From positions 372,001-436,000 of the forward strand of contig NZ_FOAZ01000002.1 of NCBI RefSeq assembly GCF_900109465.1: DNA of 64,000 nucleotides, given 5' to 3'. The stretch comes from Streptacidiphilus jiangxiensis. Lineage in GTDB: Bacteria; Actinomycetota; Actinomycetes; Streptomycetales; Streptomycetaceae. Each line of letters starts with the position of its first letter. The first letter of the stretch is position 1. A program made the translations under genes and the position numbers. The notes under the pieces were generated by a model, which was given only the letters and a program-made list of their open reading frames with translations, had not been told where the DNA came from and ran no database searches. Of the stretch, positions 3,138-10,734 are shown in pieces.

Positions 3138-3899
3138 ATGCTGAAGATCTTCCTGAGTTGGTCCGGCGAGCAGTCCCGGCTGTGCGCCGAGGAGTTGAAG
3201 CGATTCCTGCCGTTCTTCAACTCCTCGATCGAGGCCTTCGTCTCCTCGGCCGACATCAGGAAGGGAGACCGCGGGCTCCAGCGGATCGCCGCCCAACTCG
3301 AGGGGTCGACGTTCGGGATCGTCTGCATCACCCCGCACAACCGCGACGCGCCCTGGATCAACTTCGAGTCCGGGGCGCTGTCGCGTCAGGTCGCCGAGGG
3401 CAAGGTGATCCCCTTCCTGCTCGGCGCCAGCGTGCGGGACCTGCTCGAGAGCCCGCTGGAGCAGTTCCAGGCCGTGGTGGCGGACTCCGGCGCCGATGTG
3501 CTGGCGATGATCAAGTCGATCAACGCACGCTGCGAACCGGTGAACGAGGAGAAGAGGATCGAGCAGCTCTTCGAGGTGCTCTGGCCGGAGACGCAGCAGC
3601 GCCTTGCGGAGATCATGTCGAGCCCCGCGAGCCTCCCGGACGGATCCGTGGTGCCGCAGCGCCGGACCGAAGAGATCCTGGACGACCTGCTGCCGCTGAT
3701 CAGGGAGCAGATCGACCGGATCACCGAGTTGGAGGGCGCAGTGCGGGCGTTGCGGCTGACCGCCGGCTCGCTCGCCCCGCAGCAGGACCGCAGGGTGCCC
3801 TTCAACGGGATGTTCGACGAGACCGGGCCGAGGATCCCCGCCGCTCCCCTGGGCGACATCACTGGCACGGCCGGCATCCAGCAGCGTCCCGCCGAATGA
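3138..3899 (+). CDS. TIR-domain protein, first gene of a TIR/Macro/Fxs operon
   Basis: 253 aa. The first ~150 residues form a TIR fold: MLKIFLSWSG (strand A), SSADIRKGDRG (BB-loop region), FGIVCITPHN, then PWINFESGALS, where Glu77 is the candidate catalytic glutamate of TIR NAD-cleaving enzymes. A helical coiled segment with ITELEGAVRALR follows near residues 190-210. TIR proteins of this kind are the sensors/enzymes of Thoeris, making an ADP-ribose-type signal from NAD. The start is the ATG at 3138. The stop codon overlaps the start of the next gene (ATGA), so the two are translationally coupled. The next gene encodes a TM-Macro protein, which supports a Thoeris type II reading; this is inference from domain pairing. 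Confidence 0.78.
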   Translation: MLKIFLSWSGEQSRLCAEELKRFLPFFNSSIEAFVSSADIRKGDRGLQRIAAQLEGSTFGIVCITPHNRDAPWINFESGALSRQVAEGKVIPFLLGASVRDLLESPLEQFQAVVADSGADVLAMIKSINARCEPVNEEKRIEQLFEVLWPETQQRLAEIMSSPASLPDGSVVPQRRTEEILDDLLPLIREQIDRITELEGAVRALRLTAGSLAPQQDRRVPFNGMFDETGPRIPAAPLGDITGTAGIQQRPAE

Positions 3900-4774
3900 A
3901 GGCGGGCGATCTTCTGCGGCGGCTGCGCATCCTCGTCGGCACCCGTATCGGGCTGCGGCTGCTGGGTCGGAGCTGGGCGGTGCAGTTCGGGGTGCTGTCC
4001 GGAGTCGCCCAGCTGTACCTGACCTTCTGGCCGGACGCGCCGCTGCCGCGTACCACTGCCTTCGCTGCGATTGCCGGGGTCGCGCTCGTGGGCGGCGCGG
4101 CGACCGCGCTGCCGCGCAACCGGGTCCGTCGGGAGTTCAGCCACCCCGACTTCGCCGTCACCGTCGAGGTCGGTGACCTCTTCGAGCAGCCCGGGCACCT
4201 GGTCGTCGGGTTCAGCGACACCTTCGACACGGACACCGCGAGCGACTTGCTGGTGGTGGGCCGCAGCGTGCAGGGCCAGTTGCTGAACCGGGTCTTCGGT
4301 GGGGATGTGGCCCGTCTCGACGCCCTGCTCGCGCAGTCGCTGCGTGGCGTGCGAGCACTGGGCACGGAGCCGCGTTCGGCGAAGCCGCAGGGCAATCGGG
4401 TCCGCTACCCGCTGGGCACGGTCGCGGTGGTGGAGGAGGGCGCCCGCTGTCTCTTCTGCGTGGCCTACGGGCGGATGAGCAACGACCTGGTGGTCGACTG
4501 CGACGTCCGGGTGCTCTGGGACAGCCTGGCCGCGCTCTGGGAGTCGGTGCGGGTCCGCAGTCACCGCGAACCGCTGGCGATGGCGGTGGTCGGCTCGGAC
4601 CTCGCCCGGATCAACAGCATGGACCACGCCGGACTGCTCCGGCTGATCCTGCTCTCCTTCGTGACCAGGTCGCGTGAAGGCGTAGTCTGTTCGGAACTGA
4701 CGGTGGTGGTCCATCCGCGGGACTACCGGCGCATCAACATGCTGGAACTCGACGTATTCCTACGGTCCTTGTGA
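3896..4774 (+). CDS. Two-TM plus Macro-domain protein, like type II Thoeris ThsA
   Basis: 292 aa. Two hydrophobic helices (about residues 28-46 and 52-72) are followed by a domain starting FAVTVEVGDLFEQPGHLVVG with a FDTDT motif. This resembles the ThsA-type Macro domain (former DUF6430) found behind a transmembrane hairpin in type II Thoeris effectors. In that family the Macro domain binds an ADP-ribose derivative made by the TIR partner and the membrane part executes the response; this is family knowledge, not shown here. Its ATG overlaps the TGA of the TIR gene, and an FxsC-type TIR gene follows after 16 bp. It is presumably in the cytoplasmic membrane with the Macro domain inside. I see no frameshift or truncation. 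Confidence 0.7.
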   Translation: MKAGDLLRRLRILVGTRIGLRLLGRSWAVQFGVLSGVAQLYLTFWPDAPLPRTTAFAAIAGVALVGGAATALPRNRVRREFSHPDFAVTVEVGDLFEQPGHLVVGFSDTFDTDTASDLLVVGRSVQGQLLNRVFGGDVARLDALLAQSLRGVRALGTEPRSAKPQGNRVRYPLGTVAVVEEGARCLFCVAYGRMSNDLVVDCDVRVLWDSLAALWESVRVRSHREPLAMAVVGSDLARINSMDHAGLLRLILLSFVTRSREGVVCSELTVVVHPRDYRRINMLELDVFLRSL

Positions 4775-4790
4775 GTGGGGAGGCGGCGCG

Positions 4791-6164
4791 TTGGCGTCGG
4801 AGTCCTGGGCTGAAGGGGCGTCACGCCCCTACTTCTTCCTGAGCTACGCGCACACCCCTCGTCCCCGTGCTGAACGTCATCCCCGCGATCAGGACATCTG
4901 GGTTCGACGGCTCTTCGACGACCTGAGTGAGACGGTCATGGACCTGACCGGCGTCGACTCCAGGGAGGCGGCCGGGTTCATGGACCAGGGCCTGGTCCTG
5001 GGCGAGGGGTGGTCGGATCGACTGAGCGACGCCCTGGCGACCTGCCGGGTGTTCGTCCCGCTCTACTCCCCGCGCTACTTCCGCAGCCAGTGGTGCGGGA
5101 AGGAGTGGGCCGCCTTCGCGTCCCGGTCCACCTTCTCGCTGCGCGGGACCGACGGGGCCGAAACGGCCTCCCGGGCGATCGTTCCGATCCAGTGGGTCCC
5201 CATGTCTCCGGGGAGTCTTCCGCGCACGGCCGCGGAGCTGCAGTACTTGCACGACCTGTTCGGACCTGACTACGTGACGGAGGGCCTGTACGCCCTCAGT
5301 AAGCTCAACTACTTCCGCAACGCCTACGAGTTCGCGGTCCATCGCATCGCCCAGCGCGTGGTGGAGCTTGCGGAGACGACCGTCACTCCGGTCGGTCCCC
5401 GCCGAGGGTCCGAGTCCTTTCCCGATGCCTTCGAATCGGCGCGATCACCGCGTCGGCGTCTGCGGATTGCGGTCGTCGCTCCTACCGTCGCGGCCCTTCC
5501 CGCAGACCGCAGCAGCGACTACTACGGCGCCTCGGCGCTCGACTGGAACCCCTACCACCCCTCCGCGGAGCTGTCGTTGGGCCGAGTGGCGGTGGAGATC
5601 GCCAGGGGCCTCGAGTTCCTGCCGGTGCTGGAGGACTTCGACACGGTCGCCGAGTCACTGCTGACGGCGGCGTCCGCCCGGAGTCCCGTGCTCCTGCTGG
5701 TCGACCGCTGGGCGGTTCGGGACCCGGGGCGGCGGGCCCGGCTCGCCGCCCTCGACGCGAGTGCGCCGCCCTGGGCGAGCGCGCTCGTCCCGTGGAACAC
5801 CACCGATCCGGACAGCCTCGGCGAGGGTGCTCCCGACGTTGCCGAAGTCGAGGCCGTCATCCCGGAACTGCTGCGCGCCGGCCGCTCTGCGGTGGGCACC
5901 GCCGGTGGCAGCATCACCACCCACGAGGAGTTCCAGAACGCGTTCGCCATCGCCTCCGCGCGGGCGCTGGCCGAATACGCACGCCTCGAACCGTTACCCA
6001 CCGGCCCTGCGCCCAGCCCTGTGCCCAGCCCTGCGCCCAGTCCTGCGCGACCGCGTCTGCGCCCACCGTTCGGCGACGAGCGAGCGGGCGACGATCAGCC
6101 CGTCCGACCGATGAATCATCCCGCGCCTCCATCCCCCAGCGGTGCGAGGGTCGATGATGAGTAG
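4791..6164 (+). CDS. fxsC: FxsC-type TIR-like protein
   Basis: 457 aa. The N-terminal TIR-like domain (PYFFLSYAHTP at ~13; QWCGKEWAAF at ~100 with Glu105) is followed by the FxsC C-terminal domain (about 225-395; DYYGASALDWNPYHPS, then LLLVDRWAV and PWASALVPWN). A proline-rich tail encoded by short DNA repeats ends the protein. FxsC accompanies the radical-SAM/FxSxx-COOH peptide system; here no FxsA peptide or FxsB radical SAM gene is present. The start is TTG at 4791, justified by GGGGAGG seven bases upstream. It overlaps the next gene by 8 bp. Why an FxsC is coupled to a Thoeris-like pair is unknown. Confidence 0.75.
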   Translation: MASESWAEGASRPYFFLSYAHTPRPRAERHPRDQDIWVRRLFDDLSETVMDLTGVDSREAAGFMDQGLVLGEGWSDRLSDALATCRVFVPLYSPRYFRSQWCGKEWAAFASRSTFSLRGTDGAETASRAIVPIQWVPMSPGSLPRTAAELQYLHDLFGPDYVTEGLYALSKLNYFRNAYEFAVHRIAQRVVELAETTVTPVGPRRGSESFPDAFESARSPRRRLRIAVVAPTVAALPADRSSDYYGASALDWNPYHPSAELSLGRVAVEIARGLEFLPVLEDFDTVAESLLTAASARSPVLLLVDRWAVRDPGRRARLAALDASAPPWASALVPWNTTDPDSLGEGAPDVAEVEAVIPELLRAGRSAVGTAGGSITTHEEFQNAFAIASARALAEYARLEPLPTGPAPSPVPSPAPSPARPRLRPPFGDERAGDDQPVRPMNHPAPPSPSGARVDDE

Positions 6165-8859
6165 TCAGCCAGATGGCCGGATCATCACGTTCTACTCCTA
6201 CAAGGGCGGGGCCGGCCGGACCATGGCCGCGGCCAACGTCGCGTGGATCCTGGCCGCGAACGGCTTCCGGGTGCTCGTCTCCGACTGGGACCTGGAGACC
6301 CCGGGCCTGCACCACTACCTCCACCCGTTCCTGCCCCCCGACACGATCACTTCCACCACGGGGCTGATCGACCTCTTCGCAGGCTTCGCGGAGGAGGCCC
6401 GGACGGTACTCCGGCGCGAACGCGTGCCCGGACTGTATCGGGACCACGCCCGGGTCCGACCGCACGCGGTCTCCGTCGACTGGCCCTTCCCTGCGGGCGG
6501 GCGACTCGACTACCTGTCAGCGGGGCGCCGGAACCGGGACTATCTGAGCACCCTGGCCTCCTTCGACTGGAGCGACCTGGACGAGCCGTTTCTCGAGGCA
6601 CTGCGTCAGGACGTGCGCCGGAACTACGACTTCGCTCTGATCGACAGCCGCACCGGACTCGGGAGCGCGGTGGAGATCTGCACCAGGGACCTGCCCGACA
6701 TCCTGGTCAGTTGCTTCACCCTGAACAGCCAGAGCATCGAGGGGGCCTCCGACACCGCTCGCTACATCGACCAGACAGCTCCTGCGCGCGGGATCACCAT
6801 CTTCCCGGTACTGATGCGCATCAACGAGGGATCAGGGTCGAGGGCGATCGCCTCGGGAATGCGCCGAGCCCGGGAGAGGTTCCACGGGCTGCCCCGCGGG
6901 CTGTCGGCCGCCGAAGCGGACCGGTACTGGGAGCTGACCCAGATCCCCTACCGCCCCGAATACGACTGCGAGGAGATCCTCGCCACCTTCGGCGACCGTC
7001 CGGGCGAGCCCAACGGGCTGCTCGCCGCCTACGAGCGGCTGGCCTCGCTGGTCGCCGCCGAAAGGGTCACGGGACTGCCGACGCTGGACGAGTCGTTGCG
7101 CCTCCGCCACCTCGGCTCCTTCATTCGGCCCGCATCGCCCGAGGGCGCCCGGCTGATACTCCACCACGCCCCCAGGGACCGGATGTGGGCCGAGTGGATT
7201 CGCTCGGTGCTCACCCAGGCCGGCTTCCACGTGCTGGCTCCGGATGCGACCGACACCCCGGACGAGGCGCGTGCGGTCGCCGTCGTGTCCGCGGCCTTCC
7301 TGCGGACGCGCTTGGGGGATCGCCTGGCATCGCAGGCAGGGGGCACGGCCAGGGACGCGGGCCGCGCGCCGATCCTGCTCCAGATCGGCGACGGCGAGGG
7401 CACGCCCGGAACGGTCCTGCTCGGCGGCCTCGACGAATCCGCGGCCGCATCAGCGGTTCTCAGGGCGATCGGGGCGGCCAAGCCTTCAGGTCCGAGCCAC
7501 ACGGCTGCACGGTTCCCCGGCCGTGGCCCCACGGTGTTCGGAGTCCCCGCGCGCAACCCGCAGTTCTCAGGGCGCGACCTGGTGCTGGACGGGATGCACG
7601 ACGCCCTCGGGGTCAACCGCGCGCTGGTGATGGTGGCCACGGAGCCTCGCGGACTGGGTCGGCGGCAGTTGGCGATCGAGTACGCGCACCGGTTCGGCAG
7701 CGACTACGACCTGATCTGGTGGGTACCGGCAGCCTCCCGCCAGACGGCCCTTTCCGCGCTGGCCCGTCTGGCCCGCAAGCTCGACCTCCCGCCCGGCCCG
7801 GACGCCGCGTCCGCGGCCGACGCCGCGCTGGCCGTGCTGACGGAGAACGCAGCGGAAGCCCGGTTCGGCCGCTGGTTGCTGATCTACGAGGACGCCGCAC
7901 CCCCGAGGGATCTTGACGGGCTGCTGCCCAACGGCGGCGGCCGCATCCTCGTCACCTCACGACACTCGGCGTGGACGGACGAAGGCATGGACGTCCTCCA
8001 GGCGCAGGAGTTCAACCGTCGGGAGAGTGCGGAACTGCTGCGGAGCCGGAAACCGGGGCTGAACGGCAGCGCCGCGGCCGCACTGGCCGAGGCGCTCGGT
8101 GACGTGCCGCTCGCCCTGCACCAGGCGGCCCGGCGGATGGCGCGGACGGGCGAGTCGGCGGAGGACTACCGGGGCCGGCTGGCCCTCGCCCCTGACGGGG
8201 TCGACGCCGGCACCTGGACGGCGTACACAGGCCTGCAGCAGTCGGCTCCGGCGGCGCACCGACTGCTCGAGTTGTGCAGTTGCTTCGCCCCCCTCCCGGT
8301 GCCGCTGATCATCGTGCAGAGCGAAGTCGTCCTCGACCAGCTGAGACGCTACGACCCCACTCTCAGCAACCAACTGGAACTGGGCCCGCTCGTGCTGGAG
8401 TTGGACCACGCAGGACTTGTCGAGGTCGACCAGCCCGCGCAACGGCTTCGGGTGCCCGAGTTGGTGCGCCGGACCGTGCTGAACCAGCTCACGGGAGAGG
8501 TGCTGGCCACGTTGGGCCACGAGGCGCACCGGGTGCTGGTGGCGGTCGCCCCCGCAGCCGGGGGAGATGAGGACTCCTGGTTCGGACGGCGTGAGTTCGA
8601 GGAGCTGTGGCCGCACTTCGACGCGTGCGGAGCGGATCGGTGCCGCGCGCAGGGAACCCGCGCGGCACTACTGGAACGGGTCAGGCGCACCGTTCAGCTC
8701 TTCGGTGCGGACGCCGGCTCCAGGCTGGCACAACGTCTGGACGAGGCCTGGAAACTCGCTGACGGCGGTGCGGACGGGGTCTGCCGTACCGACCTGGAGG
8801 CGCTCTTGCAGAGCTTCGGGACGCGCGACCGGTCCAGGGCCACCACCGACGCCGGGTGA
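6157..8859 (+). CDS. fxsT: FxsT-like protein: ParA-type ATPase, degenerate TIR, NB-ARC, no TPR
   Basis: About 900 aa. Domain order: MinD/ParA-like ATPase (KGGAGRT at 16-22, DSRTGLG and PDILVSCFTLNSQS further on), a weak TIR-like segment (~330-440, LILHHAPRDRMWAEWIRSVL), then an NB-ARC-like region (~460-700; SGRDLVLDGM, YDLIWWVPA, WLLIYED, RILVTSRHSAW) and a winged-helix part. The expected NB-ARC P-loop (GxGGxGKT) is replaced by EPRGLGRRQ, so nucleotide binding there is doubtful. Family members usually continue with a long TPR array; this one stops just before it. The start is the ATG at 6157 with GAGGG six bases upstream; 6154 and GTG 6142 are alternatives. It is the last gene of the operon. 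The role is probably regulatory, scaffold or sensor, by inference. Confidence 0.75.
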   Translation: MSSQPDGRIITFYSYKGGAGRTMAAANVAWILAANGFRVLVSDWDLETPGLHHYLHPFLPPDTITSTTGLIDLFAGFAEEARTVLRRERVPGLYRDHARVRPHAVSVDWPFPAGGRLDYLSAGRRNRDYLSTLASFDWSDLDEPFLEALRQDVRRNYDFALIDSRTGLGSAVEICTRDLPDILVSCFTLNSQSIEGASDTARYIDQTAPARGITIFPVLMRINEGSGSRAIASGMRRARERFHGLPRGLSAAEADRYWELTQIPYRPEYDCEEILATFGDRPGEPNGLLAAYERLASLVAAERVTGLPTLDESLRLRHLGSFIRPASPEGARLILHHAPRDRMWAEWIRSVLTQAGFHVLAPDATDTPDEARAVAVVSAAFLRTRLGDRLASQAGGTARDAGRAPILLQIGDGEGTPGTVLLGGLDESAAASAVLRAIGAAKPSGPSHTAARFPGRGPTVFGVPARNPQFSGRDLVLDGMHDALGVNRALVMVATEPRGLGRRQLAIEYAHRFGSDYDLIWWVPAASRQTALSALARLARKLDLPPGPDAASAADAALAVLTENAAEARFGRWLLIYEDAAPPRDLDGLLPNGGGRILVTSRHSAWTDEGMDVLQAQEFNRRESAELLRSRKPGLNGSAAAALAEALGDVPLALHQAARRMARTGESAEDYRGRLALAPDGVDAGTWTAYTGLQQSAPAAHRLLELCSCFAPLPVPLIIVQSEVVLDQLRRYDPTLSNQLELGPLVLELDHAGLVEVDQPAQRLRVPELVRRTVLNQLTGEVLATLGHEAHRVLVAVAPAAGGDEDSWFGRREFEELWPHFDACGADRCRAQGTRAALLERVRRTVQLFGADAGSRLAQRLDEAWKLADGGADGVCRTDLEALLQSFGTRDRSRATTDAG

Positions 8860-8924
8860 GTGGCCGCGAGCCGTGCCTCCGCCACCCCCGCGCGGCAAGC
8901 GCACAGGTCGGCGCAGAGCGCTGG

Positions 8925-9854
8925 TCAGGATGCTTCGATCCGACGCACGACCTCCTCGCACAGCTCATGCGTGCGCAGCGCGTCCTGCGCATCGATGATC
9001 TTGCCCGAGCGGACGGCGTCCAGGAAGGCGAGGACGGCCTGCTCGATGCCGCGCTGGCGGGCCACCGGAATCCAGTCCCCGCGACGGGTGACGGTCCGGC
9101 CGCCGTCGTGGTCGACCACCTCGGCGAGGTTCAGCACCTCGCGCTTGGCGTCGCCGCCGGAGACCTCCAGCACCTCCTCGGTCGACCCGCTCCTGCGGTT
9201 CATGATGCCCAGCGCGGTGAAACCCTCCCCGGCCATCGTCAGCACCAGATGCTCGACCAGGCCGTCCACGCTGCGCGCCCGCACGTCGACGTGCTCGATC
9301 TCACCAGGGACCAGGAAGCGCAGCGTGTCGACGACGTGGACGAAGTCGTCGAAGACGAGCGACCGGGCCGCCTCGGCGAGCCCGACGCGGTTCTTCTGCA
9401 GCACGATCAGCTCGCGCGGGCCCTGCTTCGCCCGGACGTACCCGGGCGCGTGACGACGGTTGAAGCCGACCATCAGCGAACGCCCGCGACGCTCGGCGAG
9501 TTCGACGAGCCGGCGGGCACCGTCCAGCGTGTAGTCGAGGGGCTTGTCGACGTACACGTCGACGTCGGCCTCCAACAGCCGCTCCGCGATCGGCACGTGC
9601 TGCTCGGTGGAGGCGTGCACGAACGCCGCCCGGATCCCGCTGTCGATCAGCTCGCCGAGATCGGTGAACCGGTGTTCGGCGGCCACCCGGTGGGCCTCCC
9701 CGAGCCGGTCCAGCTTCGCCCGGTCCCGCGTCATCAACCGCAGGTCCAGGCCGGGGAGCGCCCCGAGCACCGGCAGATACGCCTTCTGCGCGATGTCACC
9801 GAGGCCGATCACGCCAACCGGCAACAGGACATCGGACGCGAGGGAGTCGGACAC
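8925..9854 (-). CDS. Gfo/Idh/MocA-family oxidoreductase
   Basis: About 309 aa. A Rossmann N-terminus (PVGVIGLGDIAQKAYLPVL) binds NAD(P); the family motif DKPLDYT (usually EKP) sits near residue 100, and a C-terminal mixed sheet follows (FVHVVDTLRFLVPG). Enzymes of this family oxidise or reduce sugars and related alcohols. The GTG at 9854 is preferred over one at 9884 because GGAG precedes it. It converges with the FxsT-like gene and shows no operon partner, so the substrate is unknown. Confidence 0.8.
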   Translation of the reverse strand: MSDSLASDVLLPVGVIGLGDIAQKAYLPVLGALPGLDLRLMTRDRAKLDRLGEAHRVAAEHRFTDLGELIDSGIRAAFVHASTEQHVPIAERLLEADVDVYVDKPLDYTLDGARRLVELAERRGRSLMVGFNRRHAPGYVRAKQGPRELIVLQKNRVGLAEAARSLVFDDFVHVVDTLRFLVPGEIEHVDVRARSVDGLVEHLVLTMAGEGFTALGIMNRRSGSTEEVLEVSGGDAKREVLNLAEVVDHDGGRTVTRRGDWIPVARQRGIEQAVLAFLDAVRSGKIIDAQDALRTHELCEEVVRRIEAS

Positions 9855-10059
9855 GAGCGCTCCAAACAGGTCAGTGATCACCAACGCACCGACCCTACGA
9901 CACCACCCCCGGGTCGACGGCCCACCTGGTTCTACGACCGTGCGGCCGTTCCCCGCCTTCGGGGTTCTTCGACCGCCCCGGGCCGTCGCCGGTTAGCCTG
10001 AGCCGAAGCCGGTAGCCGGTAGCCAGTAGGCGGGGACGAGTCTTTCGCGGGGGGTAGGC

Positions 10060-10734
10060 GTGGCTCTGGAGATGATCCCGGACCGTCCTGGTCGGGAGGT
10101 TGCGTTCGAGCCACTGCTCGACGGTCTGTTGGAGCTCTTCAGCCCCTCCTGGACCCTTCCCGAGGTGATGGCGGGCGAACATCCGCGCCACCGGTGCGAG
10201 GTCAAACGGTGGGAGATCGGCCGGGCCGCGGAGGAAGACCTCGACCTCACGCGACGGCAGGCCGACCTGCTCGTGCAGGCCGCCGTTCTCGACCAGTGCC
10301 GAAGCGGCGTCGATCAACTCGTCCGACCGCTGGTCGCGGCCATCGGGCACCGCTCCACGCAGGAGCGGATCATCCGCTACGTGCGCGACGGCTCGGACGC
10401 CGAGAAGGTCGGTGCCACCATGGCCTGGTACTTCACCGGACCCGGGCTGCGCTACGCGTCGAGCGAGGACCTGCGGAACCGGAGACCCACGCCGGAGAGC
10501 CGAGCCGCCTTGGACGCGCTGTCCGATCTGCGCGCCGACTACCGCGCCGCGGTGCTGGCAGCTTTCCTGGCCTGCGACGATCCGAAGACCCGCCAGGATC
10601 TCTCGTTGTGGATCTCACTGGACGCCTCTGCGTATCCGGAGTCCCTGCAGGCCGACCACACCGCGGCCAAGAACCTCATCCTGGCCGATCCCGAGCACTA
10701 TCGCTGGATGCTCCAACGCTCCGACCGCCACTGA
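10060..10734 (+). CDS. Uncharacterised protein
   Basis: 224 aa, mostly alpha-helical by composition, with no signal peptide or membrane segment. It contains QERIIRYVRDGSDAEKVGATM and helical blocks that could be HEAT-like, but no family is recognised with confidence. It starts with GTG at 10060 after a G-rich leader. It is a single gene followed by a clear hairpin terminator. Confidence 0.65.
   Translation: MALEMIPDRPGREVAFEPLLDGLLELFSPSWTLPEVMAGEHPRHRCEVKRWEIGRAAEEDLDLTRRQADLLVQAAVLDQCRSGVDQLVRPLVAAIGHRSTQERIIRYVRDGSDAEKVGATMAWYFTGPGLRYASSEDLRNRRPTPESRAALDALSDLRADYRAAVLAAFLACDDPKTRQDLSLWISLDASAYPESLQADHTAAKNLILADPEHYRWMLQRSDRH

Follow-up and report, generated by a model that had tools for sequence, protein, structure and literature searches.

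A four-gene operon of Streptacidiphilus jiangxiensis joins a type II Thoeris-like TIR/TM-Macro pair to FxsC and an FxsT relative with a degenerate P-loop

The window analyzed here, a 64,000-nucleotide stretch of the Streptacidiphilus jiangxiensis genome (contig NZ_FOAZ01000002.1, positions 372,001 to 436,000), contains at positions 3138-8859 four intact open reading frames (ORFs) that form a single tight run on the forward strand and encode a TIR protein, a transmembrane (TM)-Macro protein of the ThsA type, FxsC and an FxsT-family protein with ParA-like, TIR and NB-ARC regions (Table 1). The host genome consists of 9.5 Mb in 93 contigs, of which the one carrying the operon bears our handle C67. 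A sequence-only reading had described the locus as a type II Thoeris-like pair joined to FxsC and FxsT-like proteins, and family models bear out this composition. It had also portrayed all the genes as fused by overlapping start and stop codons, which applies to two of the three junctions (-4 nt between genes 1 and 2, -8 nt between genes 3 and 4), whereas TM-Macro and FxsC are separated by a gap of 16 nt.

Table 1. Genes and features of the operon (positions are those of the window)
Feature	Position	Strand	Evidence
Gene 1: TIR protein, 253 aa, ThsB-like position, C-terminal helical tail	3138-3899	+	TIR_2 1.2e-7; AlphaFold2 TIR fold
Gene 1, catalytic-type Glu77	3366-3368	+	invariant across 55 aligned relatives
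Gene 2: TM-Macro protein (ThsA-type), 292 aa, N-terminal hydrophobic hairpin (by eye)	3896-4774	+	PADLOC ThsA 6.7e-92
Gene 2, Macro domain, residues 88-273	4157-4714	+	ThsA_Macro 1e-56
Gene 3: FxsC, 457 aa	4791-6164	+	NF040588 (N-terminal) 3.8e-60; TIGR04276 (C-terminal) 6.9e-41
Gene 3, TIR domain, catalytic-type Glu105 at 5103-5105	4827-5375	+	AlphaFold2 model and structure comparison
Gene 3, C-terminal flavodoxin-like domain	5460-5996	+	AlphaFold2 model and structure comparison
Gene 4: FxsT relative, 900 aa; KGGVGR ParA-like, degenerate TIR, NB-ARC region, without TPR half	6157-8859	+	NF047398 (KGGVGR-AAA) 2e-34; NF040586 (FxSxx_TPR) 6.7e-97; TIR_2 1.4e-6; alignment
Gene 4, degenerate NB-ARC Walker A, residues 496-504, EPRGLGRRQ	7642-7668	+	Arg502 aligned with the Walker lysine

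Gene 1 matches the TIR-TM model of PADLOC (1.9e-49), and AlphaFold2 gives both gene 1 and gene 3 a TIR fold (mean predicted local distance difference test scores, pLDDT, of 82.9 and 81.8, respectively), as the sequence-only reading had it, with the flavodoxin-like domain added in gene 3. ThsB chains are found among the structural matches of the gene 1 model, at about E 1e-3, and neither gene 1 nor gene 3 encodes a TIR protein of the ThcB4 type of type III Thoeris (14.2 and 16.9 bits with NF058526, cut-off 220). The Macro fold of gene 2, on which the sequence-only reading had staked part of its case, is evident from the ThsA_Macro match and from a profile built from three relatives, which matches four PDB sequences, all of them ThsA Macro domains (best 8v6q, 4e-19). 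The pair resembles type II Thoeris in that the TIR gene lies immediately 5' of a gene for a TM-Macro protein whose Macro domain is of the ThsA kind and in that the key TIR glutamate and part of the Macro pocket (D83, D100 and S217 of Escherichia coli ThsA) are retained; unlike type II Thoeris, the operon adds FxsC and an FxsT-like gene. According to excerpts of two reports on Thoeris (PMC11204291, PMC12360287), the TIR protein makes an ADP-ribose (ADPR)-type signal that is bound by the Macro domain, and oligomer formation and TM clustering follow.

The neighbourhood was compared across three surveys, with the genes of the compared loci called by a simple GC-frame gene finder and each locus counted once (L187 = L094, L037 = L097 and L038 = L099). 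In the first survey, 394 genomes of the family were drawn, 39 of them with a Macro match, and the neighbourhoods of the 38 genomes other than that of the window were read; the second took in every one of the ten loci from a scan of a genome collection; and the third, a 392-genome search around G319 with 37 matches, contributed eight new loci, another eight being already present in the first. Outside the locus counts stand 21 of these 37 genomes (42-48% identity) and six further Macro matches of a class search. TIR, TM-Macro and FxsC occur in this order at all ten TM-Macro loci with at least 54% identity, the window included, compared with no FxsC match at any of the 44 TM-Macro loci with at most 50% identity (36 in L039-L074, three in L101-L103 and five in L188-L192) and no TIR or TM-Macro match at any of 40 control FxsC loci, which were picked for spread among the matches listed and read over stretches of mostly 19 kb. 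Nine of the ten linked loci are complete, with FxsT also present: the window, L094 (Streptomyces regalis), L095 (S. humidus), L096 (Streptomyces sp. D2-8), L097 (S. bicolor), L098 (Streptomyces sp. t39), L099 (S. tibetensis), L185 and L186; at the tenth, L100, the contig ends within FxsC. An order shared by nine complete loci in two genera exceeds chance, and the conserved neighbourhood that the sequence-only reading had made its test beforehand is thus real. The junctions are also similar, with -4, +16 to +29 and -17 to -1 nt at seven loci and +26, +18 and +7 nt in L186. Beyond the window's own cluster, 43 TM-Macro protein clusters show 54-66% identity and at least 316 bits, the next match scoring 273 bits, and five database TM-Macro clusters share their longest-contig size with a listed FxsC protein, an indirect indication drawn from the 120 of 640 FxsC proteins that were listed. 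The combination is nonetheless patchy, occurring in 3 of the 394 family genomes drawn, and among plasmid TM-Macro matches none exceeds 39% identity.

Macro and TIR genes were also seen in other arrangements. In L061 (9291-11256, + strand) the order is reversed, with TM-Macro ahead of a 382-aa TIR protein (TIR_2 3.3e-8), and the 380-aa protein P0075 is listed with both ThsA_Macro and TIR_2, so that signal maker and receptor are apparently fused into a single chain. TM-Macro and TM-less Macro matches occur together in 23 of the 38 loci L037-L074 (three further N-termini were inspected by eye). In L042, a TM-less Macro gene (7936-9285, - strand) is divergent from the TM-Macro gene (9489-10307, + strand) and its product is a fusion with a SARP-type regulator (BTAD 3.3e-7, Trans_reg_C 3e-4, ThsA_Macro 9e-50; Pfam was run on L042 alone among these), possibly representing an ADPR-sensing transcription factor. 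Finally, a 492-aa protein of Saccharothrix sp. NRRL B-16348 (L103, 9239-10717, + strand) combines a C-terminal ThsA_Macro domain (1.1e-58), its sole Pfam match, with an N-terminal cyclase-like VVVDIADYT stretch recognized by eye.

Gene 3 scores well above the cut-offs of both FxsC models (202.9 bits with NF040588, cut-off 130; 140.2 bits with TIGR04276, cut-off 55). The database gene model P0178 makes this protein 408 aa, which is the length of the ORF starting at 4938; the TTG codon at 4791 is the better start because relatives begin upstream of the YFFLSYAHT strand. We found no functional study of FxsC in the literature searched. The family is widespread, with FxsC found in 188 of the 394 family genomes (48%) and on five plasmid records, three of them at no less than 80% coverage. 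The catalytic-type glutamate is present in 8/8 linked rows and in all rows of a 40-row alignment chosen from the 120 proteins listed; five divergent control FxsC (L138, L144, L155, L159 and L168) carry glutamine instead. Retention of this glutamate in the linked proteins would suit a multi-TIR Thoeris system in which FxsC acts as a second ThsB with its own trigger and the FxsT relative merely serves as a scaffold for both TIR proteins, and a precedent is provided by E. coli CFT073, for which excerpts of PMC11204291 describe two TIR proteins, ThsB1 and ThsB2. We consider this explanation somewhat unlikely: given that FxsC is so widespread and that none of the 40 control loci contains TM-Macro, the usual role of FxsC lies with FxsT rather than with ThsA.

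Gene 4 exceeds the cut-off of the FxsT model NF040586 (325.9 bits, cut-off 300), covering only model positions 1-423 of 830, and the TPR half was not found in the stretch downstream of the gene. Lacking TPR, the Walker lysine and any Pfam NB-ARC match, it falls outside FxsT in the sense of an NB-ARC protein with TPR. Unexpectedly, the Walker A lysine is replaced by arginine, with an altered glycine pattern, in 9/9 linked FxsT proteins (e.g., GLAATGRTQLA in L099 and EPRGLGRRQLA in the window), whereas GK[ST] is kept in all 41 other FxsT captured; Pfam NB-ARC likewise recognizes both of the canonical FxsT examined and none of three linked FxsT. The sequence-only view of gene 4 as a working NTPase therefore has to be abandoned, the Walker A motif being degenerate in the window and in its eight linked relatives. 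The alignment behind these counts has 48 rows, with L185 and L186 read separately; outside it are the FxsT of L136 and L137, that of L171 (contig end), the partially captured second FxsT of L095, L096 and L098, and extra copies in L152, L153, L162, L165 and L166. Even with the Walker columns removed, seven linked FxsT form one clade in a quick tree (Shimodaira-Hasegawa-like approximate likelihood ratio test, SH-aLRT, 100; L185 and L186 not included).

These features bear on the explanation that the operon simply unites two independent neighbours of a defence island, transcribed together without functional coupling. Conflict genes do tend to cluster, and the flanks differ at most linked loci; however, gene order and near-fused junctions are kept at only 39-60% identity to the window proteins, the linked FxsT form a separate clade and the Walker A loss is confined to them, so that we regard mere neighbourhood as quite improbable.

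The four genes are under purifying selection, with ratios of nonsynonymous to synonymous substitution rates (dN/dS) of 0.16-0.42 among L095, L096, L098 and L099 and of 0.21-0.40 between L185 and L186; the window genes themselves have no relative close enough for this measurement. We also considered that the window FxsT might be a decaying, broken copy, which is unlikely because the TPR-less form recurs in two other genomes, L185 (807 aa) and L186 (808 aa), with a dN/dS of 0.29 between them. Weak tail-like matches (27%) are found downstream in L185.

The complete loci fall into three layouts. The window, L185 and L186 represent the minimal form, four genes with the TPR-less FxsT; the L186 locus is surrounded by ordinary-looking chromosomal genes. 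In the divergent layout of L094 and L097, a second FxsT lies upstream on the opposite strand (679 aa in L094, with transposase-like ORFs at the end). In the extended layout of L095, L096, L098 and L099, the operon is followed by a precursor with an FxSxx-pattern ending (TFNSAV or TFNSAL), FxsB (TIGR04269 1.5e-157 in L099), an AAC(3)-like gene and a second FxsT. The AAC(3)-like protein of L099 matches five resistance models, each below its cut-off, and such a gene is also present in many ordinary Fxs loci. FxsA and FxsB, present at four of the nine complete loci, were not found near the window operon (8 kb on the downstream side and 19.5 kb on the upstream side).

The second half of the operon thus belongs to a described system. 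FxsC and FxsT are adjacent, in identical order, in the FxSxx-COOH (Fxs) systems (Kaur et al. 2020, PMC7159879; NCBIfam models), and the four extended loci share FxsA, FxsB and the AAC(3)-like gene with them; unlike in these systems, the linked operons are headed by TIR and TM-Macro and their FxsT is P-loop-dead, and the window additionally lacks the TPR half. Kaur et al. (2020) described actinobacterial FxSxx peptide systems coupled with an AP-ATPase that carries a MinD/ParA-like domain, and the words 'Thoeris' and 'FxsC' are both absent from the available text of that paper. The sequence-only reading knew of no described system with this gene order. This holds for the whole, as no report of a TIR/TM-Macro/FxsC/FxsT combination was found in the literature searched, which mostly excluded subscription journals, and the combination is apparently undescribed; it does not hold for FxsC and FxsT. 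Since Fxs systems process peptides in multicellular actinobacteria (excerpts of PMC7159879), and FxsA and FxsB accompany the operon at four loci, it could be argued that the operon is a developmental or peptide-signalling module of Streptomyces whose TIR and Macro chemistry would drive differentiation or programmed cell death rather than phage defence. This appears very unlikely to us because a core developmental role fits poorly with the patchy distribution of the operon.

Canonical FxsT also occurs elsewhere in the host genomes. FxsT with an intact P-loop, together with FxsB above the cut-off, was found in 5/5 genomes checked (G000, G318, G319, G860 and G1020; Walker A was not resolved in L195 and L198, and L207 gave no match). 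As FxsC is so common in the family, this is only modest support for a dependence in trans. The window genome itself (G000) encodes a full Fxs cluster on contig C84 (L085, 5598-14751), with an FxSxx-ending ORF (FQSSI), FxsB, an AAC(3)-like gene, FxsC and a 1328-aa FxsT in which Walker A is intact. More NB-ARC/FxsT-like proteins, some without the ParA part, are present in this genome at 25-35 kb of C60 (L086) and at 584 kb of C84 (L087), the latter locus including a second FxsB.

A second, independent origin of linked FxsC was also considered. In a first FxsC tree, the window row sat on a long branch together with FxsC from its own genus (support 80/63), and an approximately unbiased (AU) test did not reject a single clade (p 0.319). 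In a fuller tree, with eight rows added and nine divergent ones left out, the window FxsC left the FxsC of its own genus for a position next to those of Streptomyces griseorubiginosus and Streptacidiphilus (100/99). Two origins are not demonstrated. The fuller tree still forces four label changes when the six added database rows are scored as unlinked; three of these (P0179, P0241 and P0268) share their longest-contig size with a TM-Macro match, and because two changes would, by our reading, be needed even with all six scored as linked, linked FxsC may be paraphyletic.

Collectively, these observations show a real, conserved operon under selection that merges two known systems and carries a single conspicuous derived trait. 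The loss of the Walker lysine in every linked copy hints at a regulatory partnership, and the earlier suggestion that FxsC and the FxsT relative are additional sensors or regulators is plausible. Our preferred interpretation, to which we give slightly less than an even chance, is a composite immune operon in which a type II Thoeris alarm would be gated by FxsC and a P-loop-dead, nucleotide-binding leucine-rich repeat (NLR)-like FxsT, presumably against phages. The TIR protein would convert NAD+ into an ADP-ribose-derived signal; TM-Macro would bind it, oligomerize and damage the membrane, in line with the model put forward for type II Thoeris; and FxsC, a second TIR protein with a catalytic-type glutamate, would form with the FxsT relative a sensing or gating complex acting on the TIR protein. 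Having lost the ATP-binding lysine of its NB-ARC, linked FxsT would be a scaffold, brake or sensor partner rather than an ATP-driven switch. By analogy, FxsC and P-loop-dead FxsT are best read as a putative regulatory complex on the TIR protein: in the plant pairs RGA4/RGA5 and RRS1/RPS4, according to excerpts of PMC9528088, one partner, whose own P-loop is dispensable, represses the autoactive other, a precedent for proteins of this kind serving as sensors or repressors. The likeness is confined to a dispensable P-loop in one member beside a competent partner; we claim no homology, as the bacterial protein is a ParA-TIR-NB-ARC and a membrane effector with a Macro domain would provide the output. 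A canonical FxsT could supply the switch, from next door in six loci and from elsewhere in the genome for the minimal forms. A full paired-NLR circuit, in which P-loop-intact FxsT would sense the FxsA peptide or a phage cue and signal to the P-loop-dead FxsT-FxsC complex, which would license the Thoeris TIR, its signal and the TM-Macro killer, the minimal form relying on FxsT and FxsB encoded elsewhere, is a more doubtful elaboration.

Several observations weigh against the composite operon. ThsB models match its TIR protein poorly (only 0.041 for gene 1 with PADLOC ThsB), and three pocket residues of E. coli ThsA are not retained (N114 is replaced by Q, T220 by A, and K262 is lost), for which reason the TM-Macro ligand may differ. 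Within FxsT, constraint is weakest in the NB-ARC region (dN/dS 0.37-0.50, versus 0.12-0.30 for ParA, in four pairs), the fuller tree does not unite every linked FxsC row in a single clade, and the neighbouring second FxsT is short in L094 and was captured only up to a point before Walker A in L095, L096 and L098. Furthermore, two-gene loci with TIR and TM-Macro exist without FxsC (L041, L046, L101, L188 and L190), so that FxsC and FxsT are dispensable for related pairs. The same loci argue against a guard or brake, whereby P-loop-dead FxsT and FxsC would restrain an otherwise autoactive TIR protein until a phage product releases it, since this TIR family evidently need not be autoactive. The repressing partners of the plant pairs and the maintenance of a dead P-loop under selection fit such a static role; nevertheless, we consider it unlikely.

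If the composite operon is what we propose, Thoeris would not always be a two-part alarm, and its signalling could be controlled by an NLR-like module. The persistence under selection of a P-loop-dead NLR relative alongside competent ones would constitute a bacterial parallel to plant paired NLRs, and the FxsC-FxsT pair would acquire its first testable output. In four genomes, a cyclophane-peptide pathway would furthermore be tied to a defence effector.

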